64,000 nt of DNA from a virus, in IMG/VR virus record IMGVR_UViG_3300033992_001502, positions 206,963-270,962 of that record, one strand, 5' to 3'. Under the pieces are notes generated by a model, which did no database searches, had not been told where the DNA came from, and saw nothing but the letters and a program-made list of their open reading frames with translations. The stretch's first letter is position 1; every line of letters begins with the position of its first letter. Below are positions 9,317 through 64,000 of the stretch, piece after piece. Both the position numbers and the translations under genes were made by a program.

Positions 9317-10321
9317 ATGACCTTTGTTAAAACATTTGAAAGCTTTAGAGCAACTTCGTTAACTGAAGCAGTCGATAAAGCAAACATAACTAAGATTTCA
9401 CCAGAAGCCGGCGAACTTGCTAGATGGAAAGTTGTACTAAAGAGTGGATCTGCTGATTCAATCAGCAATGCAACACCAATTCAGTCGATTATCGACAGTT
9501 TAGTAATGAACGGCGATTTTAAAAATTGGTGGACTACTACTAAATTTGAAGGAACTCCTGCGAGCATGACCCTTGGTATTGTGTACAGTGGAGTTATGAA
9601 CAAGACGAATTTAGTTGGAAAAGAGGTAGCTAAAGCTGAAATTGCCTTTGTTACGTATAGAAGACAACACACAGGCGAATCTGCTGGAGTTGACAAACCT
9701 GCAGCCGACGTATTCTATGATGTAACTAAAGCTGAACCAATCGCAACCGCGACCGTTTCAGGTTCAAAGATTCCGTTAGCTGTATGGCATCAAGAAAAAT
9801 TAATTGATATTAAGTTGGCGCAGCCAGTACCAGCAAGGGATAAATCGGGCAAGCTTATTGAAATCGATAAAGTTTATCCGTCTTACATGAAAAGCGAAGG
9901 CCAATCAGCTACTGATAAACCTACGACTACTGATACAACGACAGTTTCACCTACTACTTCTACACAAACGGTCGACTCGCCACAAGGCTCTCAATCGAAC
10001 TCAACTACCTTCGTTGATCTTAAGAAAGCCCCAGGATTTAATCAAAAGGTTCAAGATCTACAGAAGAAGATCAAGACACTAGGCGGAGACGCAGCAACGG
10101 CTCTTGGTAAATTCGGAGCAGACGGTAAATATGGAAGCGGTACAGCTAATGCAATTGGAAAACTTGTAAATAACGGTACTCCAGTTGACTCAATTAATGC
10201 AGAGATTTCTGCTAAATTAGATGCAGCCTTTGTGAACTTAACTCAAGCTCAAATCGATGCAGCTAATAAGAAAGTAGAAAAGCCAGTCGACCGTAAAGTT
10301 CAAAGGCCTAGTCCATTTTAA
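9317..10321 (+). CDS. CTS-bearing protein with peptidoglycan-binding-like C-terminus
   Basis: 334 residues. The N-terminus reads MTFVKTFESFRATSLTEAVD, a capsid-targeting-like peptide with a predicted cut in LTE|A at about residue 17. A polar domain follows, then a Thr/Ser-rich linker at about 200-230 (repeated T-T-D/S). The C-terminal segment (VQDLQKKIKTLGGD through FGADGKYGSGTANAI, about 245-285) resembles the PG_binding_1 fold. Late box upstream. Likely role: packaged or virion-associated protein that contacts cell wall; both parts are inferred from motifs. Confidence 0.65.
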   Translation: MTFVKTFESFRATSLTEAVDKANITKISPEAGELARWKVVLKSGSADSISNATPIQSIIDSLVMNGDFKNWWTTTKFEGTPASMTLGIVYSGVMNKTNLVGKEVAKAEIAFVTYRRQHTGESAGVDKPAADVFYDVTKAEPIATATVSGSKIPLAVWHQEKLIDIKLAQPVPARDKSGKLIEIDKVYPSYMKSEGQSATDKPTTTDTTTVSPTTSTQTVDSPQGSQSNSTTFVDLKKAPGFNQKVQDLQKKIKTLGGDAATALGKFGADGKYGSGTANAIGKLVNNGTPVDSINAEISAKLDAAFVNLTQAQIDAANKKVEKPVDRKVQRPSPF

Positions 10322-10327
10322 TAAAAA

Positions 10328-10335
10328 ATAAATAT
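10328..10335 (+). promoter_or_regulatory. Late-promoter box
   Basis: ATAAATAT lies 10 bases before the ATG at 10346. It is a one-base variant of the late box and closer to the start than usual. Confidence 0.4.
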
Positions 10336-10345
10336 ACTACAACAA

Positions 10346-11344
10346 ATGAATATTTCAAATTACGCGCTTATTTTAGAGAAAAAGTCTCATGGCTACTTAC
10401 TGGTCAATGAGGCCGCTGATATGCAAACAGCTGACGGTTTAACTAAACTATTATCTGGTCAAAATGGAGGACCTTATGCAAACCAATGGAACCAATTCAT
10501 GGATGAAGTTGAATCAAAGAAGGCAGCTGGTAACTATACGTTCATGGTTAAACACGATAACGGAAAAGACATGATTAACGTCGCTTATCAAATCGGAACA
10601 GACTTAAAGCCAGTAAAAGGAAGTCTTAAGCTAGCAGCGGCAACCTCGTCGTCTCCAGTTTCCGGCTCATCTATTGACATTAATAAGATTGCCGAATATG
10701 ACCCAAAGGGTAAAATGTATGAATTTATTGCTGCATTAATCACAATATCGATTCAAAAATTCGGAAAGGCATGGACTCCTGATCATATTAAATGGGTTAC
10801 TGCTCAAACCAATAAGGTTAAAGCATTAGGCGGCTCCTTCGCAGGAATCGAAAAAGCAGCAAATGCCAGCTTTTTACTAGGTGACGGTAATATCGCAGAC
10901 AATTGGATTAAGCTGACCGGTGGAGATTTACCTACACAAGTAACCACAATTACCTCAAAATACAAGAAAGCCGGCTCAGTTGAGTCAGATGCTGATATTA
11001 AGATGATCATGGACGCAGTTGATCTTAAGCTAAATGAGACAGTTACATCATTTGCTGATAGTGCAGCTATGCACGGTTTGTACATGCTAATTTCACCAAA
11101 ATTCTCCGCTGATCAACTTGCCAAGATGTGGACAGCGTCCGGTAAATCTGGCGGTTTTTTAACAGGTATTGCTGGGGAAATCGACGAGATTATGGGTACT
11201 ACCCAAAAATGGCCTGAAAAATTTGCGGCCTGGACAGTTGGAATAAGAGGTCTCACGCTTTGGTCCGGTTTTTACACAGCATACAGATTCGATACGGTCA
11301 CGTATACTGAGAGTATCGCAGCAATAAAGGCAGCTTTAGTATAA
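10346..11344 (+). CDS. CTS-like hypothetical protein
   Basis: 332 residues. The N-terminus (ISNYALILEKKSHGYLLVNEAADM) ends in LLVNE|A near residue 22, a possible prohead-protease site, though the spacing is longer than in the best examples. The rest is mixed alpha/beta with no cysteine clusters or known active site. A polar linker (AATSSSPVSGSS) near residue 100 separates two halves. It sits between two other CTS-type genes in the same direction, which supports shared late expression and packaging. Function unknown. Confidence 0.6.
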   Translation: MNISNYALILEKKSHGYLLVNEAADMQTADGLTKLLSGQNGGPYANQWNQFMDEVESKKAAGNYTFMVKHDNGKDMINVAYQIGTDLKPVKGSLKLAAATSSSPVSGSSIDINKIAEYDPKGKMYEFIAALITISIQKFGKAWTPDHIKWVTAQTNKVKALGGSFAGIEKAANASFLLGDGNIADNWIKLTGGDLPTQVTTITSKYKKAGSVESDADIKMIMDAVDLKLNETVTSFADSAAMHGLYMLISPKFSADQLAKMWTASGKSGGFLTGIAGEIDEIMGTTQKWPEKFAAWTVGIRGLTLWSGFYTAYRFDTVTYTESIAAIKAALV

Positions 11345-11351
11345 TAACTAA

Positions 11352-11822
11352 ATGAAGATTAAAGCATTCTCTGAATTCTTAGCTGAGTCATCAGCTGGCC
11401 ACGATACGGCCGGTGTAGCAATATTATACAATCAAAAAATTTTACTAGTTCATCCAACTAATGGAAGTTGGGTTAGACCAATCATGGGAATTCCAAAGGG
11501 CAAGGTCGAAGCTGGCGAAGACCTAATGAATGCTGCTCTACGAGAACTTAGCGAAGAGACAGGAATCTATCTTTCTCCAGATAAATTAGAATTGCCCGTG
11601 CAGACAGTTGAAGTTTACGATAAAGACGGCAAGTACAAGAATGCACTACACTATTTCGTTTTCCGAATTGAGGATCTATCTGAGATTGAGCTGGAGTCAT
11701 TAACTATTCCAAAGAGCCAACTTCAGGCAGAAGAGATTGACTGGGCCGGATTCATCGATATCAAAGAGGCTTACTCAAAAGTTTCGCGAGCCCAACTTAT
11801 AATTTTAGACAGACTTTCCTAA
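11352..11822 (+). CDS. Nudix hydrolase with N-terminal capsid-targeting-like peptide
   Basis: 156 residues. The Nudix box is perfect: G50, five residues, E56, seven residues, R64-E65-L66, E68-E69, G71-I72. Nudix enzymes hydrolyse nucleoside diphosphates linked to another group (dNTPs, NAD, ADP-ribose, capped RNA). Ahead of the domain is MKIKAFSEFLAESSAG, matching the CTS pattern with a predicted cut at LAE|S (residue 12). This peptide is not part of the Nudix fold. The gene follows two CTS genes by 8 bases. A packaged Nudix enzyme could act on host nucleotides right after DNA entry; substrate unknown. Confidence 0.85.
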   Translation: MKIKAFSEFLAESSAGHDTAGVAILYNQKILLVHPTNGSWVRPIMGIPKGKVEAGEDLMNAALRELSEETGIYLSPDKLELPVQTVEVYDKDGKYKNALHYFVFRIEDLSEIELESLTIPKSQLQAEEIDWAGFIDIKEAYSKVSRAQLIILDRLS

Positions 11823-11875
11823 AACTAGTTCAAGTTTCCTAGTAGAATAATAATCTAAACAATATCTTTATTCAA

Positions 11876-12442
11876 ATGGAAAACTCACAAGAACTAGCAA
11901 CCGACTTATTAGTTGAAGAAACTGTAATGGTCGAAGAAACTTCTCCAGAAATGGAACCAACACAAGAAGGCGGCGAAGAGCCTGTACAAGAAATGTCAGA
12001 ACTTGACATGCTTATCAATCGTCGTACTGGATACTTCCCAGTTAAATTAGAATTAGCTGATCTTAAATGGATCAAAAATGCATGCAATGGAGGTAAATTT
12101 ACTTTCACTGGCCCTAATGAAGCATTCATGGTAATGAATTGTTTCTTGGGATTCTCTTCTGCAATTGCGCGATTGGAGCAGGAACAGGACGAAAACACTG
12201 AATCGAGTGGAGCAGTTCAAATTCAGGCATCTGCCCTAGAAGCTGCAGCAATTCTACTTAACAAGTTCGAAGGATCTAGCCTTGAATCAGCACAACGTGT
12301 ATTTCGTATCGCAGTAGCTCTTAACACTTCAGTAATGGAAATGAAAGAGCTTGATCGTATTATCCAAACTATCAAAGTTGGAATGGCGAAACAAGACGAA
12401 CTTGATAACTTGGCTAACGAAGAGGTTGTAAACCCTAGCTAA
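11876..12442 (+). CDS. Acidic hypothetical protein
   Basis: 188 residues. The first 45 are strongly acidic and probably disordered (VEETSPEMEPTQEGGEEP). The remainder is helical and ordered (residues 50-175), with two cysteines but no metal-site pattern. It is followed by a strong terminator and then the ligase gene, so it ends its transcription unit. No family recognised. Confidence 0.7.
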   Translation: MENSQELATDLLVEETVMVEETSPEMEPTQEGGEEPVQEMSELDMLINRRTGYFPVKLELADLKWIKNACNGGKFTFTGPNEAFMVMNCFLGFSSAIARLEQEQDENTESSGAVQIQASALEAAAILLNKFEGSSLESAQRVFRIAVALNTSVMEMKELDRIIQTIKVGMAKQDELDNLANEEVVNPS

Positions 12443-12460
12443 TAATTTATAAATTTTATG

Positions 12461-12487
12461 AAAAAGCCGCGACAGCGGCTTTTTTTG
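12461..12487 (+). terminator. Rho-independent terminator
   Basis: Stem GCCGC-GACA-GCGGC followed by seven T residues, with A-run upstream. It closes the operon ending at 12442. Its presence inside a longer open frame rules out a ligase start before it. Confidence 0.9.
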
Positions 12488-12489
12488 TT

Positions 12490-12500
12490 TAGTATAATAA
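12490..12500 (+). promoter_or_regulatory. AGTATAATA middle-type promoter
   Basis: TAGTATAATAA lies directly after the T-run of the terminator and 5 bases before the ligase ATG at 12506. The same box recurs before many metabolic and repair genes in this window. Confidence 0.55.
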
Positions 12501-12505
12501 TCAAT

Positions 12506-15377: not shown

Positions 15378-15968
15378 ATGATTAAGACCTTTAAAACTTT
15401 TACAAATGAAGCACTTAGTCCAGCTATTTTAACTAGTTCAATTAATGAGTGTACAGCTAATCAACTTAAGAGTATTTCTGAATTTAAAAGTACTTATAAA
15501 ACTGAGTTAGATAAAGCAAATAAGATTGTTAACGTATACCAGGTAATTGATAAATTTAGTACCTGGCTAGTTGGTAAAACTCCAGCAATGGTCCAAGCTG
15601 CTCTATTAAATTCGCCAGGAACTGCTGATAAACTGGTAATTGAGGCATATACTTTCATTTATATGGAAATACAAAATCAATTAAAGTCAATTGGTACACT
15701 TAAAAAATCAGCACTTAAATTACTGGCTCCATCCGCTGCTGACTTTGATTCGCAAAAAACTGACTCAGACTTAGTGAATCAAATTATACAATTAGTGGAA
15801 TCGTTATTTGATGTAGGCTTTATGATTGGTTACAAATTTGACAGTAAGTCAATTGAGGCAAATAATGCTTCAAACTGGTCAGTTTCTTTTACCAAATCTC
15901 TTAATTCTAGGAAATCTTTAATATTCAAAAATATTAAACTATTAATTCGTAACTTTTTATATAACTAA
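15378..15968 (+). CDS. CTS-bearing hypothetical protein
   Basis: 196 residues. The N-terminus MIKTFKTFTNEALSPAIL matches the capsid-targeting pattern with a predicted cut at TNE|A (residue 11). The body is helical with many Ser, Lys and Asn and no catalytic motif. It lies between the replication genes and a membrane protein, and no clear late box is visible just upstream (the gap has AT-rich ATTATAAAAATATTACG). The C-terminus is basic. Function unknown; packaging is inferred from the N-terminus only. Confidence 0.65.
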   Translation: MIKTFKTFTNEALSPAILTSSINECTANQLKSISEFKSTYKTELDKANKIVNVYQVIDKFSTWLVGKTPAMVQAALLNSPGTADKLVIEAYTFIYMEIQNQLKSIGTLKKSALKLLAPSAADFDSQKTDSDLVNQIIQLVESLFDVGFMIGYKFDSKSIEANNASNWSVSFTKSLNSRKSLIFKNIKLLIRNFLYN

Positions 15969-20122: not shown

Positions 20123-20599
20123 TTACTGTTTAGCAGCTGCTTGATTAGATCTCATCGATAACCTTTTACCAGGAGACTCAAAACTAGATTTTACAGGATT
20201 GGCTTGCATAATTTTATTATCCTTTACCTCTTTGTCCTTCTTGAATACTTTATCGCCATTCATTTTCTTGGTCTTCTTCTTTTCGTTAAGATCAGAACCT
20301 TCTGCATACTGAGCCAATAGAGTATCAGCTTCATCTGCGAATTCTTCAGCAATTGCCTCTCCCATTTCGTCATTAATCATAACAATTAAGTCATTCTCAA
20401 GGTCTGTTAATCGGGTAGCAGTGCCGTATTTTTCAGAGTAAGGGTCAATATCAATGCCTGCTGAGCTGTATTGATTCGCCAATTCAATTAATTCTCTAGC
20501 CGTTTCGTGATAGAATCGGTCTGACTTCATATCCGCTTTTTGGTGAAAATCGTCAAAGCTTTCTTCGAAACTTTCAAATAGTGCAACGTATCGTTTCAT
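20123..20599 (-). CDS. CTS-bearing hypothetical protein with basic C-terminus
   Basis: 158 residues. N-terminus MKRYVALFESFEESFDD fits the capsid-targeting pattern with a possible cut at FEE|S. The core is acidic and helical, and the last 50 residues are Lys-rich and likely disordered (KKKTKKMNGDKVFKKDKEVKD), as expected for a protein packed against DNA. A late box on the minus strand precedes it. Role inferred as packaged internal protein. Confidence 0.65.
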   Translation of the reverse strand: MKRYVALFESFEESFDDFHQKADMKSDRFYHETARELIELANQYSSAGIDIDPYSEKYGTATRLTDLENDLIVMINDEMGEAIAEEFADEADTLLAQYAEGSDLNEKKKTKKMNGDKVFKKDKEVKDNKIMQANPVKSSFESPGKRLSMRSNQAAAKQ

Positions 20600-24202: not shown

Positions 24203-24549
24203 TACTAGTAAAATTTAGAGACATTGACCCAGATACTGGATCAATTAGTCAAGAAGGAACCGTTGCAACGTGTGCGGATGAACAATTAGCTAACTGGGTT
24301 AAGTCTGCTCTTGGGAGAGATAACGCTGAGAACGGCGATCCTAATCGTGAATTCTATTTAGACGATCAAGCGAATCGCGAAGCTACATACGAAGAGAGAG
24401 TTGCATGGTTCGTTGCAAACTATTACGAAACTGGAATGGAGTATGATGCTCTGCTTGAATCAATGAAAGAGGTTAACCTTGACTCATTCGAATGGTATGA
24501 TGAAACGATAAGTATTCCAACTCACTTTAAGAATTACCGCTTAAATTAA
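24190..24549 (+). CDS. Hypothetical acidic protein
   Basis: 119 residues; an alternative ATG nine bases later (24199) gives MILVKFRDIDPDTG. Acidic, aromatic-rich. It overlaps the previous small gene by 13 bases and its stop overlaps the end of the convergent lysin gene by 4 bases. Last gene of the thyA run. Not recognised. Confidence 0.6.
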   Translation: MESMILVKFRDIDPDTGSISQEGTVATCADEQLANWVKSALGRDNAENGDPNREFYLDDQANREATYEERVAWFVANYYETGMEYDALLESMKEVNLDSFEWYDETISIPTHFKNYRLN

Positions 24550-25799
24550 GCAACTTCTGCATCTAGGCTCTTAGCGAAGGCGCTTGCTTTCGCTATAGCT
24601 TCTCTACCGACAGTTGATCCCAATGAAGAGCCCCATCCGGCATTTGCCTGAACGTAGTCTTGTACTGCACTGTCTAAGTCAGTATATGCATTTGGATCTT
24701 TTCCTTTGCGATCAAACGAATCAATGAAATAAATTACTGCGAATTCTGCTGCAACTTCAGGTTTTTCCAATTCTTCAGGATTCTCAACAATATTAACTTT
24801 TCCAAGTTTAGCTCCCATTTGGTCGTATATTCTTTGAAGATTTTCGTAATTTCCTTTAAACGTTATTCCATTAAATCCACGGCCTCTATACTTAGCTCCG
24901 TCTCCTGGAGAAACGTTTCCGTATTTTCCACCGTATACTGCTTCCCAAAATAGGCTATCGAATAATTCTTGGCCTTGGGTCCTCCAACCCTCAATTTGTT
25001 CATCGGTGTATTGGGATAATTTGCTTGGAAATACCTCACGTATTCTTGAAATAGGGGTACCGAAATAAGAAATTTCACTAGTTAAATTAGGAGACTCTTT
25101 TGAAATAACTCCAAGTACTGCCTTTCTAGCAAATTCATTAGTTATTCCGTTTTGATCCATCGCCTTTAGTAAGGCATCCATATTTTCTTCAGGGAATTTT
25201 GAGGTAGATTTAAAATTCTGCCCTTTTCCTGGGGTAAGAGTTGTGTGTTTATCTAGATCAGCTTGTGAAAAGTTTTTATCTTTAAGGGCTGTGATTAGTC
25301 GGTTAATAAGATTTGCATCAATTAAAACAGAGTCAGTAGTTCGACCGGCTCCCTCTTTACCAGTCTTTGCAAATTCAACGCTGCCTTTGTGTTCCCAATG
25401 CCAAGACTCTCTTGGAATATTTGTGAATCCATAAGTTGCAGCATTGTCCTTCAACCACTGAAGAGCTTCAGCACTAAGGTCTAAGTCAAGAGCGCTTCCC
25501 CATCCGTGATTGGAAGTTCCAGGAACTGCCGCAAGTCCTCCATTTTTATAGAGACCTTTACGTGCAGCGACATCAACTTGCGAATCGTAATCTCTGTACG
25601 AGTCAGTAATTCCCCAAGTTATTCCGTCTGCTTCGGCAGCAGCTCTCATTTCTTCGTATGCTTTCGCTGCAATTGAATTTAATTTATGACCTTTAGTCGG
25701 TTGTCCTGCACCAGCGATAGGTTCTAATCCAGTAGTATCAAGTCGGCCATTTGCGGCTTCAGTTAAAAACTGTTTGAAATTTAATATCTTATTTTCCAT
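24546..25799 (-). CDS. Two-domain cell-wall lysin (VanY peptidase + GH19-like) with CTS
   Basis: 417 residues from ATG at 25799. N-terminus MENKILNFKQFLTEAANG matches the capsid-targeting pattern (cut LTE|A at residue 14). Residues about 20-155 form a VanY-type D,D-carboxypeptidase: SYRDYDSQ, SNHGWGSALDLDL and SWHWEH supply the His, Asp and His zinc ligands. Residues about 215-400 resemble GH19 chitinase/lysozyme (EISYFGTPISRIREVFPSK, GKYGNVSPGDGAKYRGRGF, then NYENL). It would cut both peptide and glycan parts of the wall. It overlaps the upstream peptidoglycan-binding gene by 11 bases. Confidence 0.85.
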   Translation of the reverse strand: MENKILNFKQFLTEAANGRLDTTGLEPIAGAGQPTKGHKLNSIAAKAYEEMRAAAEADGITWGITDSYRDYDSQVDVAARKGLYKNGGLAAVPGTSNHGWGSALDLDLSAEALQWLKDNAATYGFTNIPRESWHWEHKGSVEFAKTGKEGAGRTTDSVLIDANLINRLITALKDKNFSQADLDKHTTLTPGKGQNFKSTSKFPEENMDALLKAMDQNGITNEFARKAVLGVISKESPNLTSEISYFGTPISRIREVFPSKLSQYTDEQIEGWRTQGQELFDSLFWEAVYGGKYGNVSPGDGAKYRGRGFNGITFKGNYENLQRIYDQMGAKLGKVNIVENPEELEKPEVAAEFAVIYFIDSFDRKGKDPNAYTDLDSAVQDYVQANAGWGSSLGSTVGREAIAKASAFAKSLDAEVA

Positions 25800-26154
25800 T
25801 ATCTGAAGTGCTGATTTTTGTAGTATCCTCATTGAATTTCTGAATAGCTATTGCTGTTTCTGGTCCAAAATAACCATCAACTCCGTGTTCAGGTAATTCG
25901 TAACCTAAGAACTCTAGCGCTGCTTGAATGTCTTCTACTAATTTAGAATAGGTATAGGTTCCGCCGTTTTGGACAGCTACTGATTTTCCAGAATTTGCAA
26001 AATCCTCCAATGTAGCATAGAACGCTTCGACCTTATCGTCTAGGAGTGTGCCGTCTTCTTTTTTCTGAGCAGAGGTCTCTTCCTTCTTGCCGGTAAGCCA
26101 GTCCCAAAAACCCTCATTTGTTTTTTCTGTGAATTGATTAAAATTATGAATCAT
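25789..26154 (-). CDS. CTS-bearing peptidoglycan-binding protein
   Basis: 121 residues. N-terminus MIHNFNQFTEKTNEGFWDWL resembles the targeting peptide (possible cut TNE|G, residue 14). The C-terminal half is a PG_binding_1 domain: LVEDIQAALEFLGYEL, GVDGYFGPETAIAIQKFNE (about 75-108). It is the first gene of a two-gene operon with the VanY/GH19 lysin, with a late box upstream. It may supply the wall-binding partner of the lysin. Confidence 0.75.
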   Translation of the reverse strand: MIHNFNQFTEKTNEGFWDWLTGKKEETSAQKKEDGTLLDDKVEAFYATLEDFANSGKSVAVQNGGTYTYSKLVEDIQAALEFLGYELPEHGVDGYFGPETAIAIQKFNEDTTKISTSDNGK

Positions 26155-26205: not shown

Positions 26206-26961
26206 ATGAGTGAGAAAATAAAGAGAGTAGAGTTAAACGGATTTAGGTATTACGAAGTATCTGACTCATCTGGGATAATTGGCACATTCCCAAGCGTCAC
26301 TTCAGTTCTTGGAGAAACCTCCGATAAGACAGGTCTTGATGCTTGGCGAAACCGGGTAGGACATGAGGCAGCTGATCGAATAGGTCGAGATGCCGCCAAT
26401 CGCGGAACGGTCATGCACAGGTTGTGTGAACTCTATTTAAGTTTGCCCGCGTCTATGAAACCCAAGGATCGATTAGAAGAGTGTCTTTTGCTATCTAGGT
26501 TAGACGATGAAATTGACGAGTTTGACAGTAGAGCCAAAATTGTGGGTGGAATGTTATTCTACAACTTCGTTAAGTCAAACTCATTCGATGAAATAAAGAG
26601 AGTAATTGCACAAGAAAGATTTCTATGGACTCCAAGAGACGGCGGTTATGCTGGCACAGTCGATAATGTTTCTGAGTTAATAACTAATGACGTTGCAATA
26701 GTTGATTTTAAAACAGCGCGTAAACCCAAGGAAGAGAAATGGATTGAGGATTACAAGCATCAGGTCGCTGCGTATTCAGTTGCCGTTTGGGATAGAATGC
26801 AGATCAAAGCTGTTACTTGCCGAATTTGGATCTCAAACGAAATGCACCTTCAACCCCAGTACTTTAGAATGGACCAGGTCGAAATGCGTGAGTACTATTA
26901 TAAATTCAGAGAAAGATTAGCTGACTTTTATAAAAAGAATCCTCCTATTACAATTCAATAG
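26206..26961 (+). CDS. PD-(D/E)XK nuclease (RecB/Cas4-like exonuclease)
   Basis: 251 residues. The nuclease core is GGYAGTVDNVSELITND followed by VAIVDFKTARKPK and YKHQVAAYSVAVW (about 150-195): the Asp, Asp-x-Lys and downstream Gln-x3-Tyr pattern of RecB-like PD-(D/E)XK enzymes. N-terminal AANRGTVMHRLCELYL (about 63) supplies the family His. It probably degrades or processes DNA ends. Convergent 14-base overlap with the next minus-strand gene. Confidence 0.8.
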   Translation: MSEKIKRVELNGFRYYEVSDSSGIIGTFPSVTSVLGETSDKTGLDAWRNRVGHEAADRIGRDAANRGTVMHRLCELYLSLPASMKPKDRLEECLLLSRLDDEIDEFDSRAKIVGGMLFYNFVKSNSFDEIKRVIAQERFLWTPRDGGYAGTVDNVSELITNDVAIVDFKTARKPKEEKWIEDYKHQVAAYSVAVWDRMQIKAVTCRIWISNEMHLQPQYFRMDQVEMREYYYKFRERLADFYKKNPPITIQ

Positions 26962-28918
26962 GCTGACCTGATACTTTACGTAAAAGATCTAATCTAACTG
27001 GTGTAGGTCGAGTAGCTCCACCGAATGTATTTAAGTAGATAAATGGCTGATTTGCTGTATTTCGGGTAGTGTAATCGCAACTAGCAAAGATTCCCCAATT
27101 ATTCATGTGATTAGCGATATAGTAACGGTCTCCTGCTCTAGCTCTTAATTTATCTTCCTCAGTTACTGTTTCCAATTCGTATGCCATCAGTCCAAGACCA
27201 GCAAATGGTCTTTCGATAATATGGCCAGTTACAACGTTTATTAATTTAGCATCGTAACCAGTGCGGTTCAATAGGTCGTCAACTGAATCTACTGGACGAA
27301 TTGATCTTCCTGCTCTACTGAATGCTACATAAACTGGGATACCAAAAGATGATCTAAACGCTTCTCTCTCTTGAGGACCTAGTACAATGAACTTAGCAAA
27401 GTCGCCGGTTCTAATCTTTTTCAATAAGTCAAGTTCCGGTAAGAGTCCACGTGCTTCAACTCGACGTTTAAGATCAGATCCGCTCTGTGGCATTTCCGCA
27501 AATACTCCAGGTCGAGTAGCTCGTTCTGCATTTTGAGTACGTTCAGCTTCTCTTCTAGTAATAGCAGCCTGTCTTTCAGTTTCTCGACGTCTTTCAATTT
27601 CCTCAGGATCAATGAATGATCTCATGTACTCTTGTTCAACTGTTGATAAATTAACACGACTAAGATCCGGAATTGCTTCTGGGATTACTTTAATCCATTG
27701 TGATTTATCGGTAGTCGTTCTAGTATCTCCAGCATTTCCTGGCTCAAGGTTACCATTGTCAATCTGTATAGCATTAGAAATTGAGGCAGCGACATACGAA
27801 CCATTTCTATCTAAAATAACTCGTCGAATTGGTAGAGACGAATATGATGCATCGTATAAGTAGCTCTTAACTACGATAAAGTCTCCAACGTTCCATTCAG
27901 CATCAGGATCTGCTCCGTATTGTGTAATTCGGTCAGCTAGTCTTTGACGAGTTGCTGCCTCTTCACGAGTTCTACGTTCAGCTGCTTCAACTCTTTCACG
28001 TTCTCTTTGTTCTTCTTCTCTTCGTTGAGCCTCAGTTCGTGCAGCCAAGATAGCCTGAACTCTTTCAGGTGTTAATCGATTATCCGTAACTAATGAATTA
28101 AGATAATCTCTATTTAATAGAACTAGTGATTCATCGGGTAAAATTGCAAGTAATTCATCGTCCATATCAAAACGATCAGGCTTTGTTTTATCTCTACCAA
28201 TTACTCTTTCAATAAATCTGTTAGCCACATCAATTTTTGCAGCGGTTGACATGGATTTATCCATTGCCATCCAGTTGCCTGCGCCGATAATTGCGTGAGC
28301 ATCATCTTCTGATGGAGAGCCATCTGGGTTGGATTTGTAAGTCAACATTGATCCCCATGCTTTATCCTTCTCAGTAGTACCAGATGGATTAGACGAAATA
28401 TAGTCTGCGTATTTTAATAGAGTTCGGTACATTTTATAACCCAAACCAGCTCCTCTTAATCCGCTTGGAATACCTCCATTTGGAAAGTGGCTTCGTTGAA
28501 AATCCGAAGGTCCTTCAGTACGAAAGTGAATTGCATTATCGTCTCCTGGGTAAACGTCTCTCCATCTTCCGAATTCATTAGCGAATCGGCTAGCGTCAAC
28601 ATTTTTAAGTTCAGCCATTAAGTCAACGATAGGTTGTGGAAATTTAGGGTAATAATCTCTGGAGTTTGAAGGTTTTTCCATTGTAATATCCAATCGTCGA
28701 ACTCCCTTAAGGGCTCTAACTAGATCTACTGAAATTTCCGCAAACGATCGGGTCTCTGGCCTGTTTGCTAATTGTTGATTTCTGTCAATTGTTGATTGTC
28801 TAACTCTACCCATGTGACTTTGAGCAAGTCTCTCTGGTCGTTTAACTCCCATTTCGCCAACCAGGCCGTCTTGATTAAAAGCGGACTCGTTAACTATGTC
28901 TCTTAAGGAATTTATCAT
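26948..28918 (-). CDS. Large CTS-bearing protein with GNAT-like region and charged coil
   Basis: 656 residues. N-terminus MINSLRDIVNESAFNQ fits the targeting pattern (cut VNE|S at residue 11). Residues about 155-200 (LRGAGLGYKMYRTLLKYADY, then KAWGSM) resemble the acetyl-CoA-binding motif A of GNAT acetyltransferases and the downstream W-x-x-L. Residues about 295-330 and 440-465 are extremely Arg/Glu-rich (REEEQRERERVEAAERR), likely long helices. The C-terminal domain (500-650) is unassigned. Late box upstream. Packaging and acetyltransferase activity are both inference; catalytic residues cannot be confirmed. Confidence 0.65.
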   Translation of the reverse strand: MINSLRDIVNESAFNQDGLVGEMGVKRPERLAQSHMGRVRQSTIDRNQQLANRPETRSFAEISVDLVRALKGVRRLDITMEKPSNSRDYYPKFPQPIVDLMAELKNVDASRFANEFGRWRDVYPGDDNAIHFRTEGPSDFQRSHFPNGGIPSGLRGAGLGYKMYRTLLKYADYISSNPSGTTEKDKAWGSMLTYKSNPDGSPSEDDAHAIIGAGNWMAMDKSMSTAAKIDVANRFIERVIGRDKTKPDRFDMDDELLAILPDESLVLLNRDYLNSLVTDNRLTPERVQAILAARTEAQRREEEQRERERVEAAERRTREEAATRQRLADRITQYGADPDAEWNVGDFIVVKSYLYDASYSSLPIRRVILDRNGSYVAASISNAIQIDNGNLEPGNAGDTRTTTDKSQWIKVIPEAIPDLSRVNLSTVEQEYMRSFIDPEEIERRRETERQAAITRREAERTQNAERATRPGVFAEMPQSGSDLKRRVEARGLLPELDLLKKIRTGDFAKFIVLGPQEREAFRSSFGIPVYVAFSRAGRSIRPVDSVDDLLNRTGYDAKLINVVTGHIIERPFAGLGLMAYELETVTEEDKLRARAGDRYYIANHMNNWGIFASCDYTTRNTANQPFIYLNTFGGATRPTPVRLDLLRKVSGQPIEL

Positions 28919-31300: not shown

Positions 31301-32098
31301 TTAGTTGACGTAATCTTGAAGTGCCACTTCAAGTGTGTCTGTGTTCTCAAGTTCTGACGATTGCTCGTCATAGTATTCGTTATATCGTTTCTCTAAAATT
31401 GCAGAAGCTTCACCGTATCCTAAATTCTCTAGGATTCGGATAGCTAACCAGTCAGCTTCTCTCTCCTGTCTCTCGTCGTAAGCTGCCATTCCTCGGTCAG
31501 AGCCTCCGTGATTTAGTAGTGAATGCGAAATTTCATGTGCTTCGATTGCCAACAGATGGTCGTCTCCTAGATTCTGAGACTCAACTTCCTGTCCATCGAC
31601 GAATATTGTTTTTGAAACCATATCAGCGAAAGCAATTCCTAAGCTATCAAATATTTTTGCAACTTTTGCATAGAGCTCATCGTCCGAGAAAAGAACAATG
31701 ACTGTCCATTCGGGATCAATTTCGCTTTTCCAAACCGCATCCTCTGCGCTTTCAGATAAGTTATACTTCTTCATTTTTGAAGCACGTTGACCAGTTAAGT
31801 CTCTCCATAATTCTCTGACGTCTGGCTGGGCAAGTGTATCTGCCTGAACCATTGAGTAAAATTGATTATCTGAATTCTGCATCATTGCGAACCATTCTTC
31901 AAGGCTAGGTTTTTTAGACAGAGCCTCAATTCGAGGTTTTAGTCTTCTAAACATTGGAAATAGCTCAGTTTCGTACTTATCTCCAGTTTGTGGATTACGT
32001 CCGAATTTTCTGTTAATATCAAGTTCCGTTAACTTCCTTAGGGGTCTTGGATTATGATTTTCATTTAACCAATCGCTATATGTTGATAAAAGTTTCAT
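31301..32098 (-). CDS. CTS-bearing zinc metallopeptidase
   Basis: 265 residues. N-terminus MKLLSTYSDWLNENHNP is a clear targeting-type peptide (cut LNE|N at residue 13). The zincin motif HEISH is at 188-192 in IEAHEISHSLLNHGG; the third ligand is likely in READWLAIR near 213-221. The layout resembles small gluzincin/ImmA-type peptidases. If packaged, it could cleave host proteins early in infection. Late box 8 bases upstream of the coding start region (32106-32114, minus). Confidence 0.75.
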   Translation of the reverse strand: MKLLSTYSDWLNENHNPRPLRKLTELDINRKFGRNPQTGDKYETELFPMFRRLKPRIEALSKKPSLEEWFAMMQNSDNQFYSMVQADTLAQPDVRELWRDLTGQRASKMKKYNLSESAEDAVWKSEIDPEWTVIVLFSDDELYAKVAKIFDSLGIAFADMVSKTIFVDGQEVESQNLGDDHLLAIEAHEISHSLLNHGGSDRGMAAYDERQEREADWLAIRILENLGYGEASAILEKRYNEYYDEQSSELENTDTLEVALQDYVN

Positions 32099-32149: not shown

Positions 32150-32611
32150 ATGATTCATAAATATCAACAATGGCTTGATGAATCTGAGAAACTAGAGGCA
32201 GTTGATACGCCGGTAACACCAGACGCTCCAGTTGAAGCTCCAGCAGAAGTTCCAGCGGAACCGGTTGCAGAAGTTCCAGCTGAGACTCCAGTTGATGCCG
32301 GGATTCCAGCAGAGGCTCCGGTTGAAGACGACACAGCCGAATCAGAAATTGAAAAGTATCAAGAACTAGACACAGCTAGAAGAGATGCAATTAAAGCCTT
32401 TAAAAAGAAACAAGAAGAATTTTTAGAAATTCCTAATGAGATTCGTAAGAGTCCAGTCGAAGAGGCTGATAAAACAAAGGTCGAGACATTAAAGAGCGAA
32501 TTAGTTGAACTTAATAAGACAATGAAAGACTCTATTAAAGCTTGGGACAACTTTAATTCTGAAGCCTTAGGGTTAGCAGATGATGAGACCTCTGAAGAGT
32601 ACGAACCTTAA
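32150..32611 (+). CDS. CTS-bearing protein with Pro/Ala/Val/Glu repeats
   Basis: 153 residues. N-terminus MIHKYQQWLDESEKLEA (cut LDE|S at residue 11). Residues about 20-62 are an elongated low-complexity region with repeated PVEAPAEVPAEP-type units; residues 68-145 are a charged helix. The late box lies 17 bases upstream. Extended acidic packaged proteins of this kind are known in T4-like heads as core components; this is an analogy, not homology. Confidence 0.65.
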   Translation: MIHKYQQWLDESEKLEAVDTPVTPDAPVEAPAEVPAEPVAEVPAETPVDAGIPAEAPVEDDTAESEIEKYQELDTARRDAIKAFKKKQEEFLEIPNEIRKSPVEEADKTKVETLKSELVELNKTMKDSIKAWDNFNSEALGLADDETSEEYEP

Positions 32612-32631: not shown

Positions 32632-32820
32632 ATGAAAAATTTAGTTAACAGTTTTACGAAATTCGTAAACGAGAGCTGGGATCCAAGTGATGCTTTCTCT
32701 GGTGAGACTTCAAACTGTTGCGGTGCTCCTATTATGATGGGCGATATTTGCTCTGATTGTAAAGAACATTGTGAAGCAGAAGAAGACGAAGAAGATTACG
32801 AAGACGATTATCAACACTAA
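32632..32820 (+). CDS. CTS-bearing small zinc-ribbon protein
   Basis: 62 residues. N-terminus MKNLVNSFTKFVNESWDPSD (cut VNE|S at residue 14). Then NCCGAPIMMGDICSDCKEHC, a four-plus cysteine zinc ribbon (about 28-46), and an acidic tail of Glu/Asp repeats. It follows the previous CTS gene by 20 bases and precedes a terminator. Function unknown. Confidence 0.65.
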   Translation: MKNLVNSFTKFVNESWDPSDAFSGETSNCCGAPIMMGDICSDCKEHCEAEEDEEDYEDDYQH

Positions 32821-39206: not shown

Positions 39207-40460
39207 TTATTTAGCGGCTGCTGCAGTTAAAGTAAGTTTCAATTCAAAGAATTGAGCTTTTCCTCTAACGTTAGTAGTTGCATTTCCAGTTGAAACAGCA
39301 GTAGTCTTAGTAGTTTCTACAGCTTTAGGCTTAACTGCATTTTTTTCAATGTTTAGGTCAACGAAACGGTCAGCTGCATTTGCAGGTTGACCACTTGCAC
39401 CGATTGACCATGCAACTTCGTATGCATCAAAACCTGGATGTCCTTTTGCTTTAAGTCCAGAGTTAAGAGCATTCATGAAAGCAACACCACGACGGTAAGC
39501 AAGATCTTGATTTTTAGTTGCATCATCCTTTGGAGTTACTGCACCAGTTCCGTCAGCCTTAGGCATTTGTTTACCGTTCCATTCAGTACTTGCACCAGAA
39601 GTTAAAGTAAATTTATCAGGGCGTGATCCTGCTGGGAATTTAGCTAAACATAACTCTACTGCTTTTGCAACCTCAGCTTGAATAGCTGGAGTAACTTGGT
39701 CAGAACCAGCTGCGAATTCTGCAGCGAATTTGCCAGTAACTGCATCGGAACCTCCAGTTTGAGCAACGTCTACTTTAAGATCCTTACCTGCAGCAAGGTC
39801 GCCAAGTAATTGTTGAGTGTACAAATATAGATTGTCAGCGTCTACTACTGGAGTAGTTGTAATATCTAGGTAACCGTCTTCTCCCATTCTTTGGCTCAAG
39901 ATGAATTGACCTTGACCCATTTCAAATGCATTTTGGTTATATGCGTTAACAAATCCCAACAACATACCTGTACTAGAGGTTGCTTTACTCCAACGTGGAT
40001 CAGTATCAATTTCCAGTGAATTAATCCCAATTCGACCCTGAGTCATGATTCTACCTGTACCGTCAGCTCCAGGATTGTAGTCCACCGTTGTTTTGCTGTA
40101 GGCAATTTTTGATTGACCTGCAATCAAACTATCAAGAGTAGCGGTAACTACTTCGTCTAGGCTCTTACCGCCAAAGATTCCCAAGAAACCTTTTTTAGCC
40201 GTTTGGCCGTGTTTAGCAAGGCTTCCCAAAATTTCTTGATGAGCCTCTTTCTTTTTAATGTTTTGGATGTTAGACTTTGCAACCTCTTGCGTGAATAGTC
40301 TAAATTGTGCTCCAGCTTGACTTGCGATGTACTGATCGTATTTTGCCTCGTCAATGCTAAAGTCATCAGTACTGAGAGTAACTGAATCGATTGACCAGTT
40401 TTCGTTTATAGCGTTTAGGTTTTCGTTTAACCATTGGCTATAGCCTTTAATTAAGTTCAT
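39207..40460 (-). CDS. CTS-bearing OmpA-like paralogue
   Basis: 417 residues. N-terminus MNLIKGYSQWLNENLNAINE (cuts LNE|N and INE|N). Residues about 240-380 resemble OmpA_C: FAAGSDQVTPAIQAEVAKAV, TLTSGASTEW, DLAYRRGVAFMNALNSGL, ending DRFVDLNIEK. A late box is 21 bases upstream on the minus strand. Same architecture as 36927-38546, so a duplicated family of head-targeted, wall-binding proteins. Confidence 0.7.
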   Translation of the reverse strand: MNLIKGYSQWLNENLNAINENWSIDSVTLSTDDFSIDEAKYDQYIASQAGAQFRLFTQEVAKSNIQNIKKKEAHQEILGSLAKHGQTAKKGFLGIFGGKSLDEVVTATLDSLIAGQSKIAYSKTTVDYNPGADGTGRIMTQGRIGINSLEIDTDPRWSKATSSTGMLLGFVNAYNQNAFEMGQGQFILSQRMGEDGYLDITTTPVVDADNLYLYTQQLLGDLAAGKDLKVDVAQTGGSDAVTGKFAAEFAAGSDQVTPAIQAEVAKAVELCLAKFPAGSRPDKFTLTSGASTEWNGKQMPKADGTGAVTPKDDATKNQDLAYRRGVAFMNALNSGLKAKGHPGFDAYEVAWSIGASGQPANAADRFVDLNIEKNAVKPKAVETTKTTAVSTGNATTNVRGKAQFFELKLTLTAAAAK

Positions 40461-41274: not shown

Positions 41275-41706
41275 TTATCTTAAGAGATCCAGTCGGGGTA
41301 CAGATCGCCCGCTGGGTACTTCCCGCCAGGTCTTGTCTCCCAATTCCCAAATAAGATCTACATCGTGTTCTTTAGCTAGATTCATGATAAACCCGTCAAC
41401 AAACTCAACATCTCCAGGCTCGTCGGCCTTGACCATGCGAATAAGTTCAGCCGGTGGATACTCGTACCAAGAGTCCTCACCGTCAGCATTGGGAGCCGGA
41501 TAGGCCTCCATGAACCAACACTTCATAAAGGTTTCTAGATTACCGGAAAAATCCTTTCGACCAATCTTTTCCCAGTCTACCCGGACTATCAGCACACGAA
41601 ACCCAGGAATGGGAATCCCCAGCCTATGGAGTTCCATCTGATCGGTGTAATTCTGAGCCGACTCAGTTAGCGCAAATCCATTGAAATCGGTAATATAATT
41701 CTGCAT
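41275..41706 (-). CDS. CTS-bearing hypothetical protein
   Basis: 143 residues. N-terminus MQNYITDFNGFALTESAQNY (cut LTE|S at residue 15). The body is mixed alpha/beta with several Trp and acidic patches (VRVDWEKIGRKDF; WELGDKTWREVPSG). It is GC-rich compared with other CTS genes, like the region to its right. Late box 4 bases upstream of the start on the minus strand (closer than usual). Confidence 0.6.
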   Translation of the reverse strand: MQNYITDFNGFALTESAQNYTDQMELHRLGIPIPGFRVLIVRVDWEKIGRKDFSGNLETFMKCWFMEAYPAPNADGEDSWYEYPPAELIRMVKADEPGDVEFVDGFIMNLAKEHDVDLIWELGDKTWREVPSGRSVPRLDLLR

Positions 41707-59886: not shown

Positions 59887-60189
59887 ATGAAGCACATTAA
59901 ACTATTTGAAGAGATTAACCGAGAAGACGAAGACGAATTATCTGCATTGGGCTTTGACACAGACGACCTTAAACTTAGACGATTTGCTCAACAAGTTTCG
60001 GACGAGATCCTTGACGAATACGATTATGCGGTAGACTCAGGCCGAATATCTGCTAGAGAATATTCCCCCGAAGAAATGTACAAGTACGTAAAGGAACTTT
60101 GTTCAGACAACGATATCACAGCAGACGAAGTAATTGCTGACTTTGAATGGCGCTCGATTACTTGGGAACTTGGGCTTGGAAACATATAA
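59887..60189 (+). CDS. CTS-like acidic protein
   Basis: 100 residues. MKHIKLFEEINREDEDEL resembles the targeting peptide (MKHIKLFE-type shared with 61652 and 62242), though the cut site (NRE|D) is weaker. The rest is acidic and helical (EEMYKYVKELCSDND). Late expression likely from the box at 59387. Confidence 0.6.
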   Translation: MKHIKLFEEINREDEDELSALGFDTDDLKLRRFAQQVSDEILDEYDYAVDSGRISAREYSPEEMYKYVKELCSDNDITADEVIADFEWRSITWELGLGNI

Positions 60190-61651: not shown

Positions 61652-62233
61652 ATGAAGCATATTAAACTTTTTGAGAACTGGTTTCAGGACGTAGAAGATA
61701 ACGTTGATCGTAAGAGATTTGCGCCTGAGCTAGAACCTGAAGAGACTAAACCTGCTGAGACTGAAGAAGACCCGGCTGAACCTGAAGAGGAGAAGCCCGA
61801 TACTCAGGAAGAACCTAAAGCAGAAGAGCCTACTGAGCCAGAGACATATTCCGGTTGGTTAAAGACCCAAGCTGGCGTAAGCGAAGTTGTTGAAGCTGAA
61901 GAAGGTACAGACAATTCAAATGGTTGGGTTCGCTTGTCAAATGGAGTATCCATTCAATGGGAAATCGATATGCGAGACTATCCGTTCCTTTCCGTAAGTT
62001 ATATGCTTGATAAAAAAGTAATTCAGTTAGCTGATAATCCAGCCGGCGATCTTGCTCGACAATTCTACAAAGAGGGCCGTGAATACATTCCTAGAGAATG
62101 GGAGTCTGTTGTAATTAAAATAGGTGCAGGTGTTCCAGCCTTGATAAAGGATGCAATTGCTTCAAACAAGCGACGAATGAAGGAGCAGGACGAGATCTTA
62201 TCAGGTCAAATCGTTGCAGCTTTTAGCAAATAA
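61652..62233 (+). CDS. CTS-like protein with acidic Pro/Glu repeats
   Basis: 193 residues from ATG 61652. MKHIKLFENWFQDVEDNV resembles the targeting peptide (possible cut DVE|D). Residues 25-75 are strongly acidic and Pro-rich (ETEEDPAEPEEEKPDTQEEP). The C-terminal half is ordered and basic (NKRRMKEQDEIL). Similar in outline to small T4 prohead core proteins. Late promoter. Confidence 0.6.
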   Translation: MKHIKLFENWFQDVEDNVDRKRFAPELEPEETKPAETEEDPAEPEEEKPDTQEEPKAEEPTEPETYSGWLKTQAGVSEVVEAEEGTDNSNGWVRLSNGVSIQWEIDMRDYPFLSVSYMLDKKVIQLADNPAGDLARQFYKEGREYIPREWESVVIKIGAGVPALIKDAIASNKRRMKEQDEILSGQIVAAFSK

Positions 62234-62241: not shown

Positions 62242-62556
62242 ATGAAGCAGCACGTAAACCTATTCGAAGAATTCGATAACGACCAAGAAGAATTAAAATC
62301 CATGGGCTTCCGTAGCAAGCCAGACGGTTCACCTGACGAAAGATTCGACGAAGCTGTATCAGAGTGGTATCAAGATCCTGAAGTAACTGCAGCAATCGCT
62401 CTTCTTAAAAGAAAATCAACTGAAATCCTTGAAAAATGGATAGATTTTTCAGACGATGAGGATGAAACTGAATTTGACCAACGAGTATCATGGGTATACG
62501 ACAATGGAGTTGATGACGTAGGCTGGTTTGAATTCGTAACAATGCTTGATAATTAA
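62242..62556 (+). CDS. CTS-like acidic protein
   Basis: 104 residues. MKQHVNLFEEFDNDQEEL follows the MKHIKLFE-type opening of 59887 and 61652, with a weaker cut site. Acidic, with DDEDETEF in the middle. Late box upstream and terminator downstream. Role unknown; likely packaged or core protein. Confidence 0.55.
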   Translation: MKQHVNLFEEFDNDQEELKSMGFRSKPDGSPDERFDEAVSEWYQDPEVTAAIALLKRKSTEILEKWIDFSDDEDETEFDQRVSWVYDNGVDDVGWFEFVTMLDN

Positions 62557-62620: not shown

Positions 62621-63145
62621 ATGGAATACGAACAACTCATTCAAGGCTGTATTGAAAACAATAGAGAATACCAAAAGACCCTGTTCGATAAGTTTGCTGG
62701 TAAATTCATGACTATCGCAAAGAGGTACATGAAAGACCCTATGTTAGCCGAAGACGTATTGATGGAAGGATTTTATAAAATATACAAGAATCTTGGGAAA
62801 TTCAAAGGAGAAGGTTCCTTTGAAGGGTGGATGAGACGAATCATCGTGAATACTGCGCTTACTAAACTCAAGCAGAACAAGCACGAGTTTAATGAGTGTA
62901 ACTTAGTAACAGCGGAGGCAGTCAGTATAGATCCAACTTACTATGAAACAGCATCAGCCGAAGAGTTAATGTCTCTGATTAGCACTCTTCCGATTGGATA
63001 TCGTACCGTTTTTAACATGTACGTAATTGACGGATTTTCCCATAGGGAAATTGCAAAGGAACTTAACATACAAGAAGCCTCAAGTAGATCACAGCTATTT
63101 AAGGCAAAGGATTTTTTACAAAAACGAATAAACCCAAATACATGA
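62621..63145 (+). CDS. ECF-type sigma factor
   Basis: 174 residues from ATG 62621. Region 2: NREYQKTLFDKFAGKFMTIAKRYMKDPMLAEDVLMEGFYKIYKNL (core-binding and -10 recognition). Region 4: LPIGYRTVFNMYVIDGFSHREIAKELNIQEASSRSQL (helix-turn-helix). The compact two-domain layout and lack of region 3 define extracytoplasmic-function sigmas, common in Bacteroidota. It lies among late-box genes, so it may read the ATAAATAA class, but this is untested. Confidence 0.9.
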   Translation: MEYEQLIQGCIENNREYQKTLFDKFAGKFMTIAKRYMKDPMLAEDVLMEGFYKIYKNLGKFKGEGSFEGWMRRIIVNTALTKLKQNKHEFNECNLVTAEAVSIDPTYYETASAEELMSLISTLPIGYRTVFNMYVIDGFSHREIAKELNIQEASSRSQLFKAKDFLQKRINPNT

Positions 63146-63234
63146 AAAATTGGAAATCAAATGATTGGCTCGGATTCTTGCTTGTTGCAGGATGGTTCGT
63201 CTTTATCGCTTGGATTGCTATCAAGTTCGGATAG
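63142..63234 (+). CDS. 30-residue membrane peptide
   Basis: ATG 63142 to TAG 63232-63234, overlapping the sigma stop. MKNWKSNDWLGFLLVAGWFV then FIAWIAIKFG: one hydrophobic segment rich in Trp. Function unknown. Confidence 0.45.
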   Translation: MKNWKSNDWLGFLLVAGWFVFIAWIAIKFG

Positions 63235-63240
63235 CCCACG

Positions 63241-63250
63241 GATAAATAAC
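63241..63250 (+). promoter_or_regulatory. Late-promoter box
   Basis: GATAAATAAC, 19 bases before ATG 63269. Confidence 0.6.
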
Positions 63251-63268
63251 CAAAAGAATTAATCTTTA

Positions 63269-63493
63269 ATGCAACATATTAAATTATTCGAACAATTTAT
63301 AGCAGAATTCACAATGACTGAGCCGATTGTTAAACCTGCGCCAGTTAAAGAGCCTAGCACTCGACCTGCAACTAGACCCAAACCTAGTCCAATTCCTAGC
63401 AAACAACCGTTTAAACAACCTGAGCCAGCTAAGGCTCAAGCTGAGGATGTAATTGCTCGCCTAAAAAGTCTAGAATCAAATGAAGAGCTTTAA
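63269..63493 (+). CDS. CTS-bearing Pro-rich protein
   Basis: 74 residues. MQHIKLFEQFIAEFTMTEPI is very close to the T4 internal-protein signal (MKTYQEFIAE|A), with a cut predicted at IAE|F. The middle is a Pro/Lys-rich extended region (RPKPSPIPSKQPFKQPEPAK), and the end is helical (DVIARLKSLESNEEL). It overlaps the next gene by 14 bases. Likely a head-internal or prohead-core protein. Confidence 0.65.
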   Translation: MQHIKLFEQFIAEFTMTEPIVKPAPVKEPSTRPATRPKPSPIPSKQPFKQPEPAKAQAEDVIARLKSLESNEEL

Positions 63494-64000
63494 AACATTC
63501 TTAAATGAAGCTGACATTCGTCAGAACCCAGCAATAACTCCAGAATACTTAGGATCTCTTGATAAACGAGCAGAACAGAGCGCTCGTGAAGTTGAACAGA
63601 GACACGGTCGAGATATGGGTAGCCTAATGAGAGCTGTCCGTGAAGTACAGATGTTACAACGCGGTAAAGAACGCCAGCTTGAAGAGTTAACTACTTCAGT
63701 AATCCTAAGCCAGTACGGTTCAATTCTTGGAGAAACTGAGTTAGACATTAAGATTCCAAACGATCCTCGTGAAATGAAAGCGAAGATGAAGGAGACTGAT
63801 GACGACGATCAAGAAGATCAGGACAAACCCAATTTCAAAGAGATTGAGGATGAGGATACTAAAACAGCAATCAATAAACGTAAGATCCTAAACATGATCG
63901 CTCAAGGCGAAGCCATTAATTCAAAGAAGATGTTAATGGGCGATGAGAACATGGAAGGTCTAACTCAATTATTTGGAGAGGCTAATGCCCGTAAAATGGT
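63480..64000 (+). CDS. CTS-bearing virion protein, truncated by window end
   Basis: ATG 63480 overlaps the previous gene; the frame is open to the right edge (at least 173 residues). N-terminus MKSFKTFLNEADIRQNPAIT is an almost ideal targeting peptide (cut LNE|A at residue 10). The rest is charged and helical (REVQMLQRGKERQLEELTTS; KRKILNMIAQGEAINSKKML). Probably a head or scaffold-related protein; the C-terminus lies outside. Confidence 0.7.
   Translation, partial: MKSFKTFLNEADIRQNPAITPEYLGSLDKRAEQSAREVEQRHGRDMGSLMRAVREVQMLQRGKERQLEELTTSVILSQYGSILGETELDIKIPNDPREMKAKMKETDDDDQEDQDKPNFKEIEDEDTKTAINKRKILNMIAQGEAINSKKMLMGDENMEGLTQLFGEANARKM

Follow-up and report, generated by a model that had tools for sequence, protein, structure and literature searches.

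A large set of putative T4-type capsid-targeting sequences in a jumbo phage whose scaffold carries tag-like repeats

The internal proteins (IPs) of bacteriophage T4 are diverse anti-defence proteins that have a capsid-targeting sequence (CTS) alone in common, and one of them, IPI*, is injected and blocks a restriction enzyme (PMC3012670). In the jumbo phages SPN3US and phiKZ, ejection proteins are processed by the prohead protease (PMC5694885, PMC7411985, PMC10052503); the propeptides are mostly long, often above 100 residues, cleavage was found for about eight head proteins, and a gp22 counterpart was not confirmed as of PMC5694885. Polyvalent proteins enter the cell with the phage DNA, as stated by Iyer et al. 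2017 in the form cited in PMC7824862. Here we analysed a stretch of 64,000 nucleotides (the window), which is positions 206963-270962 of the 270,962-bp virus record IMGVR_UViG_3300033992_001502 (G000), and a short N-terminal peptide, hereafter the tag, shared by otherwise unrelated genes. The initial annotation had read the tag as a T4-like CTS. We consider it likely that the tag is a T4-type CTS used at an unusually large scale to package cargo for delivery: the protease, the capsid site, the portal and the controls described below support this, and cleavage, packaging and delivery would follow by analogy with T4.

G000 is a T4-type jumbo phage. By its capsid, the closest named phages are the 462-kb LR756500 and the Lak phages, followed by LR756504, LR756502, LR745206 and LR756501, and also by Tenacibaculum phage pT24 and Chryseobacterium phage MA9V. 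IMG/VR contains near copies (capsid identity 100%; 270-271 kb), and in many relatives there the capsid is 57-81% identical. One thymidylate synthase segment matches a Flavobacterium phage at 84% identity, which makes a Bacteroidota host likely. When the last open reading frame (ORF) of the record was joined to the bases at the record's start, the long protein that we expected did not result, and we therefore do not claim that G000 is circular. ORFs were called automatically, and the genomes compared are related to each other.

A short N-terminal tag in G000 and its relatives

We searched residues 2-25 of all proteins for a strict motif, [FY]xx[FW][LIVT]xE. It was present in 21 of 347 G000 genes; internal segments of these proteins gave an expectation of 3.1 (binomial P=2e-11). 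The genome-wide profile search of N-termini suggested at the outset, performed with a leave-one-out position-specific scoring matrix (PSSM), gave scores of at least 6 in 30 genes (0.9 expected), 13 of them in the window. The initial annotation had compared the tag to the MKTYQEFIAE of T4 internal proteins, and the same scan recovered two of these from the T4 record. In five genomes pooled, the first aromatic residue lies at residues 4-9 in 123 proteins, and each later position accounts for one to three proteins; the predicted propeptides are about 10-20 residues long.

The tag is conserved between diverged orthologs. In the HAD hydrolase, both F and the E are kept in 10/10 distinct sequences while the residues between them vary, and the W and E of the M78-like metalloprotease are kept in 7/9. 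Reciprocal best hits between G000 and its relative G003 keep the full motif in 9 of 14 tagged genes, and in some other pairs the [LI]NE site is displaced from FxxF, as in FDQFTGKINE|A (the bar marks the predicted cut). The Glu retention of 1.0 in this comparison holds by construction and was not used. A 2H-phosphodiesterase family gathered without the motif (13 sequences, 26-53% identity) has one N-terminal Glu column conserved at 90% or more, with diverging flanks. An unsupervised motif finder returned motifs that were too broad and was abandoned. Tag-like motifs also lie internally or C-terminally in three G000 genes outside the window (83375-84931, 64279-65247 and 106055-106708); such motifs away from the N-terminus (FADFIKEQNNL at a C-terminus, TFENFVNE with TYENYLNE, and KRFEQFVNE) are possible targeting or cleavage sites.

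Large tag repertoires were found in several relatives. LR756501 (735 kb; a genome of 735 kb is given in PMC7162821 as the largest known at that time) has 67 tagged genes for 7.9 expected (P 8e-39), in the forms K-x-Y-xx-FINE|A/S and YxxYIKE|S. LR756500 (462 kb) has 30 for 5.9 expected, in the form MKYIxxYEEFLLE|A/N; the first 340 kb of LR756504 have 25 for 6.0, G002 has 16 for 2.8 and G003 has 24 for 3.1. The earlier statement that the tagged set is much larger than that of T4 thus holds for tagged genes, with about 30 in G000 and 67 in LR756501; in G000 and relatives up to the 735-kb phage, about 20 to 60 unrelated proteins appear to carry the tag. G004 (capsid 57% identical) has 2 tags for 2.1 expected, and its Nudix homolog lacks an N-terminal extension. 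Gene content differs between relatives. G000 7603-8748 has, immediately after its tag, a domain that LR756501 carries at the C-terminal end of a larger tagged protein (52% identity), a case of shuffling behind a constant tag.

The strict motif found nothing in Sphingomonas phage PAU. About 18 PAU genes (e.g. JQ362498 9332, 101031, 112994 and 113313) carry a peptide of their own, MK[ST][LI]xxL[YF]E, which in several continues as (A/S)KLNE(A/S). This peptide resembles a capsid-targeting dialect in its own right, in a phage that has been cultured. Subscription papers and preprints aside, the literature searched describes no large CTS repertoire in a huge phage, and the term 'capsid targeting' does not appear in a jumbo-phage survey (PMC7824862).

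Head genes, a promoter-like element and scaffold repeats

The initial annotation expected a gp21-like prohead protease elsewhere in the genome and held that its absence would refute the CTS reading. A Peptidase_S77/gp21 domain (PF03420) was found at G000 100030-100365 (E 1.2e-10, over the cut-off), matching also the PHROG head maturation protease (E 4e-33), so that the genome does encode such a protease. The protease and a scaffold form one fusion protein (G000 100066-101904 if the first ATG is used); an upstream GTG start would add ...FIIEKINE|AVTV, that is, an N-terminal EKINE|A. The fusion had no PDB sequence match. A Gp23-type capsid gene (PF07068, E 1.5e-41) follows it, with a predicted propeptide end NAGSINE|S; the corresponding end reads [IL]NE|[SA] or [IL]FE|[QN] in relatives, and the T4 capsid cleavage region reads FGSFLTE|A. 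G000 also encodes a T4-type portal (PF07230, E 1.3e-67). Two small tagged or tag-like genes, 103709 and 104095, come directly after the capsid gene.

The T4 late promoter is TATAAATA, which the heptamer ATAAATA resembles. This heptamer lies, mostly 15-40 bp upstream, before 16 of 29 tagged G000 genes versus 42 of 316 others (P 7e-7); the counts are 9/14 versus 40/269 in G002 and 11/22 versus 44/275 in G003. It also precedes the tail sheath, tail tube and baseplate genes. Its genome-wide occurrence (L007, L008, L009, L010 and L012, as well as the tail genes) suggests a gp55-like late sigma factor in a phage of likely Bacteroidota hosts. By eye, two sigma-factor-like ORFs, one RpoD-like and one ECF-like, are present at window 48878-49606 and 62621-63145.

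Residues 242-395 of the G000 scaffold form a tandem array with a period of exactly 14, whose repeats resemble the tag; successive units read YSNYLSAMLGKGIN, YTEHVAEKVNNVID, YSDYLGEKVEKNIQ, YSEYLGEKVNQNIN, YSEYVAENVEKTIE and so on. A class-level motif for these repeats, [FYW]xx[FYWH][LIV]xE, has 9, 8, 8, 15 and 12 internal matches in the scaffold-proteases of G000, G002, G003, LR756501 and LR756504, the most of any protein in each of these five genomes. Shuffled scaffolds gave means of 0.10-0.17 in the four genomes tested (0.14 for G000, with 9 observed). Among six proteomes, two motifs exactly 14 apart occur in seven proteins. Five of these are the scaffold-proteases; the remaining two are small (LR756501 716346 and LR756504 145806) and hold two scaffold-type repeats at the tag position. 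Each other spacing from 10 to 18 was found in at most one protein. Repeat array and tag repertoire are present together in the same five genomes; G004, pT24, MA9V-1, PAU and the part of Lak-A1 searched have no repeat array, and a tag of this type is not above chance in them. Since array and tag are present or absent together in these sampled genomes, and since the two small proteins hold scaffold-type repeats at the place of the tag, we propose that the tag mimics a single scaffold repeat. The rule 'no tag without repeats' holds only for this type of tag, because PAU has its own dialect. The repeats may simply be built-in protease sites, and both this and mimicry may apply. Separately, a 1,691-aa LR756501 protein (21458-26533) contains long repeats with FVKYLIEIEKKDIG-type segments every 58-61 residues.

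Putative cargo, tagged genes of the window and alternative explanations

The tagged G000 proteins include Nudix, VanY/endolysin, M78-like metalloprotease, T4-type lysozyme, HAD hydrolase, nucleotidyltransferase-like and 2H phosphodiesterase domains and many unknowns; those of LR756501 include PPK2, DeoC aldolase, methyltransferase, radical SAM and polbeta-type nucleotidyltransferase domains. In a BLASTP comparison with T4 ORFs, the tagged genes hit only two, apparently the lysozymes gp5 and e, and none of the IPs; judged from these sequences, the tagged cargo would work like T4 IPs and is not homologous to them. Some tagged genes probably encode core or structural proteins and not part of the 'arsenal' first described.

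The 2H-phosphodiesterase cargo, encoded outside the window at G000 14961-15512, carries the tag MLKSFSQFVTGLFE|KK... Its AlphaFold2 (AF2) model has a mean predicted local distance difference test (pLDDT) score of 87.8, with only residues 1-19 below 50, and the protein shows a 2H phosphoesterase fold with both HxT motifs. The best Foldseek matches were the poxvirus cyclic GMP-AMP (cGAMP) phosphodiesterase (2.4e-6) and the phage nuclease Acb1 (1.5e-5), which acts against the cyclic oligonucleotide-based antiphage signalling system (CBASS). Its Pfam Acb1 score is just under the cut-off (25.0/27), the homologs L283 and L287 pass, and no PDB sequence match was obtained. Homologs are also found inside large proteins, in L292 beside an ART-PolyVal ADP-ribosyltransferase domain. 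We predict that this protein is an anti-CBASS cargo that would cleave CBASS signals. A PADLOC scan gave a single uninformative match, PDC-S07.

Taken together, these data are consistent with the following scheme, in which we infer docking and cargo functions and, from T4 biology, cleavage, packaging and injection. A tagged protein would be made late in infection, in many cases driven by an ATAAATA promoter of T4 late type before its own gene. The first 10-20 residues, with F/Y-x-x-F/W-[LIV] at their centre, would dock it onto the growing prohead scaffold core by imitating one 14-residue unit (YSEYVAENVEKTIE type) of the protease-scaffold fusion. At maturation, the gp21-type protease would cut after the Glu ([LIV]xE|S/A/N), as in the capsid propeptide and probably the scaffold repeats, thus freeing mature cargo in the head, which would exit with the DNA at the next infection. 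A broader proposal, to which we give an even chance, is that one lineage of giant, T4-like phages of Bacteroidota type, up to the 735-kb genome, uses the repeat-array scaffold as a general addressing system: one mimic repeat would load any protein, tens of enzymes including anti-CBASS phosphodiesterases would be injected as a first-strike kit, and tag and scaffold would co-evolve as dialects.

Several observations weigh against this scheme, and the mimicry step is weaker than the rest. At position 4 the scaffold repeat favours Y, and at P2 A/G, whereas the G000 tag favours F/W and N; when the residue-specific tag PSSM was run over the whole proteome, the G000 scaffold did not stand out, and only the class-level motif and the period-14 test picked it out. 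LR756500 is intermediate, with only 3 degenerate repeats yet 30 tags, and tags of CTS type are present in T4 and PAU, where such scaffold repeats are absent. The co-occurrence of repeats and tags is not independent, because the genomes are related. The AF2 prediction of the repeat region is of low confidence (pLDDT 30-45), and the scaffold model was therefore not used as evidence. Moreover, ATAAATA is not enriched before tagged genes in LR756500 and LR756501, and it is unusual for lysis-type enzymes, and for proteins as large as some of these, to serve as internal cargo.

Another explanation, rather unlikely in our view, could be that the motif is only an extended protease recognition site and that other signals in each protein ensure targeting. 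The T4 capsid site has the same residues as the tag, and the motif also occurs away from the N-terminus in G000 (106055, 64279, 83375). However, the G000 capsid site lacks FxxF, which is thus not needed for cutting there, and the shifted tags keep FxxF while [LI]NE moves, suggesting two separable elements. In addition, foreign proteins fused to the CTS are targeted in T4 (Mullaney and Black 1996, as cited in PMC3012670). It is also unlikely that tagged proteins are prohead-core parts only, like T4 gp67/gp68, which would be cut up and leave the head so that few or none are delivered. The genes 103709 and 104095 next to the capsid gene, the motif in the scaffold and the small, acidic or low-complexity nature of several tagged proteins fit this possibility, but many tagged proteins have a recognisable enzyme domain, the modelled one is well folded apart from its tag, and gene content varies among relatives. 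We consider it very unlikely that the tag has no packaging role and was spread by recombination or duplication, or is a signal for a membrane or replication compartment: short shared peptides can hitchhike and the adjacent genes 29698 and 30276 have near-identical tags, but the P1 Glu and aromatics persist between diverged orthologs while neighbouring residues change, the tag agrees with the capsid cleavage site and is found together with the scaffold array, and the tags show no evident hydrophobic signal or transmembrane stretch. Finally, chance likeness read into a short, low-information motif, as the weak window examples 26948 and 41275 might suggest, is barely credible given the P values for G000 and LR756501 against internal controls and the null-like counts that the same method gives in G004 and PAU.

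The twelve window ORFs first named as examples all exist and carry the peptide (Table 1). The count of at least 16 tagged window genes is reasonable if shifted or degenerate forms are included; ten genes have the strict form (first ten rows), and a PSSM score of at least 6 adds 9317, 61652 and 62242, giving 13. About five further genes have a weak, shifted or degenerate tag, each with ATAAATA upstream (26948, 41275, 25789, 20123 and 10346). Two of the named examples, 26948 (LRDIVNE|S) and 41275 (DFNGFALTE|S), score at background by PSSM alone but have the promoter-like element. Minus-strand genes had been named by their low coordinate (gene 31301 starts at 32098), so that their tag lies at the high end of the listed range. 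For gene 24546-25832 an internal ATG is the probable start, giving MENKILNFKQFLTE|A. The Nudix gene 11352..11822 has a degenerate tag in G002 and G003 and none in G004; orthologs of 36927..38546 (31-52% identity) mostly keep theirs.

Table 1. Window genes with a predicted or possible CTS (window coordinates; bars mark predicted cuts)
Position	Strand	Gene	N-terminus	PSSM score	ATAAATA upstream	Remarks
11352..11822	+	Nudix hydrolase	MKIKAFSEFLAE|S	18.1		domain from residue 18; PF00293 E 8.9e-15
15378..15968	+	196 aa, no confident family	MIKTFKTFTNE|A	19.3		
24546..25832	-	VanY D,D-carboxypeptidase + endolysin-like domain	(MENK)ILNFKQFLTE|A	15.9		orthologs FDQFTGKINE|A
31301..32098	-	M78/IrrE-like metalloprotease	MKLLSTYSDWLNE|N			below Pfam cut-off
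32150..32611	+	153 aa, acidic/proline-rich	MIHKYQQWLDE|S		yes	
32632..32820	+	62 aa, Cys-rich	MKNLVNSFTKFVNE|S	11.9		
36927..38546	-	539 aa, no family	MKHSIIKGYSSWLNE|N	23.8	yes	
39207..40460	-	417 aa, no family	MNLIKGYSQWLNE|N	27.2	yes	
63269..63493	+	74 aa	MQHIKLFEQFIAE|F	20.1	yes	
63480..64000	+	cut by record end	MKSFKTFLNE|A			G003 ortholog 562 aa
9317..10321	+	334 aa	MTFVKTFESFRATSLTE|A	10.2	yes	shifted cleavage
61652..62233	+	CTS-like	MKHIKLFENWFQD	8.8	yes	Asp replaces Glu
62242..62556	+	CTS-like	MKQHVNLFEEFDND	7.1	yes	degenerate
26948..28918	-	656 aa, no family	MINSLRDIVNE|S	background	yes	weak CTS
41275..41706	-	143 aa	MQNYITDFNGFALTE|S		yes	shifted CTS
25789..26154	-	PG_binding_1	MIHNFNQFTEKTNE|G		yes	shifted CTS (FNQFTEKTNE|G); PF01471 E 1.2e-6
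20123..20599	-		MKRYVALFESFEES		yes	possible degenerate CTS
10346..11344	+		MNISNYALILEKKSHGYLLVNE|A		yes	possible shifted CTS
59887..60189	+	100 aa	MKHIKLFEEINRE	3.0	no	possible degenerate CTS; score not above chance alone

Other window genes were noted by eye. Several untagged DNA-repair-type genes (EndoIII-like, ligase, UV-damage endonuclease-like and Fpg/Nei-like) lie at 5544-24069, near thymidylate synthase, and a patatin-like phospholipase (IDGGGLRG) and two secreted CAP/SCP-like proteins stand among tagged genes (35309-36271, 36335-36880, 38632-39135).

Comparison with known packaging systems

Beyond the initial annotation, the present analysis adds the machinery, the controls, the breadth, the promoter-like element, the scaffold repeat and a candidate anti-CBASS cargo. 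If the CTS reading is true, a sequence rule would predict which giant-phage proteins travel in the particle and enter first, and dozens of hypothetical genes per phage would become testable injected effectors or anti-defence proteins. Scaffold-repeat mimicry would hint at how a CTS is recognised, and interchangeable tags could serve to load enzymes into phage heads.

As in T4 IPI-IPIII and Alt, unrelated proteins share a short N-terminal F/Y-x-x-F/W-[LIV]-x-E|A/S/N, and as in T4 there are a gp21-family protease, a gp23-type capsid with a matching propeptide site and a T4-late-promoter-like element; the Acb1-like cargo parallels IPI*. G000 and its relatives differ from T4 in having about 30 (G000) to 67 (LR756501) tagged genes with a tag dialect per lineage, in the fusion of the G000 protease to the scaffold, and in the tandem tag-like scaffold repeats, which are absent from T4 gp22. 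SPN3US and phiKZ are likewise jumbo phages with many packaged proteins and a T4-related protease (gp245/gp175-type); in G000 the packaged set is predicted. They have no large set of unrelated proteins with a shared short tag, and the long propeptides that they carry on few inner-head proteins contrast with the short ones predicted in G000. Polyvalent proteins also bring many conflict-type enzyme domains in with the DNA, as predicted here, and Acb1-like homologs occur within them; they string their domains in one chain, whereas here each domain has a separate gene and its own tag. In encapsulins, cargo-loading peptides are short terminal tags that put different proteins into an HK97-fold shell. 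Encapsulin tags bind the shell and stay on, whereas the tag described here would dock onto the scaffold and is predicted to be removed.

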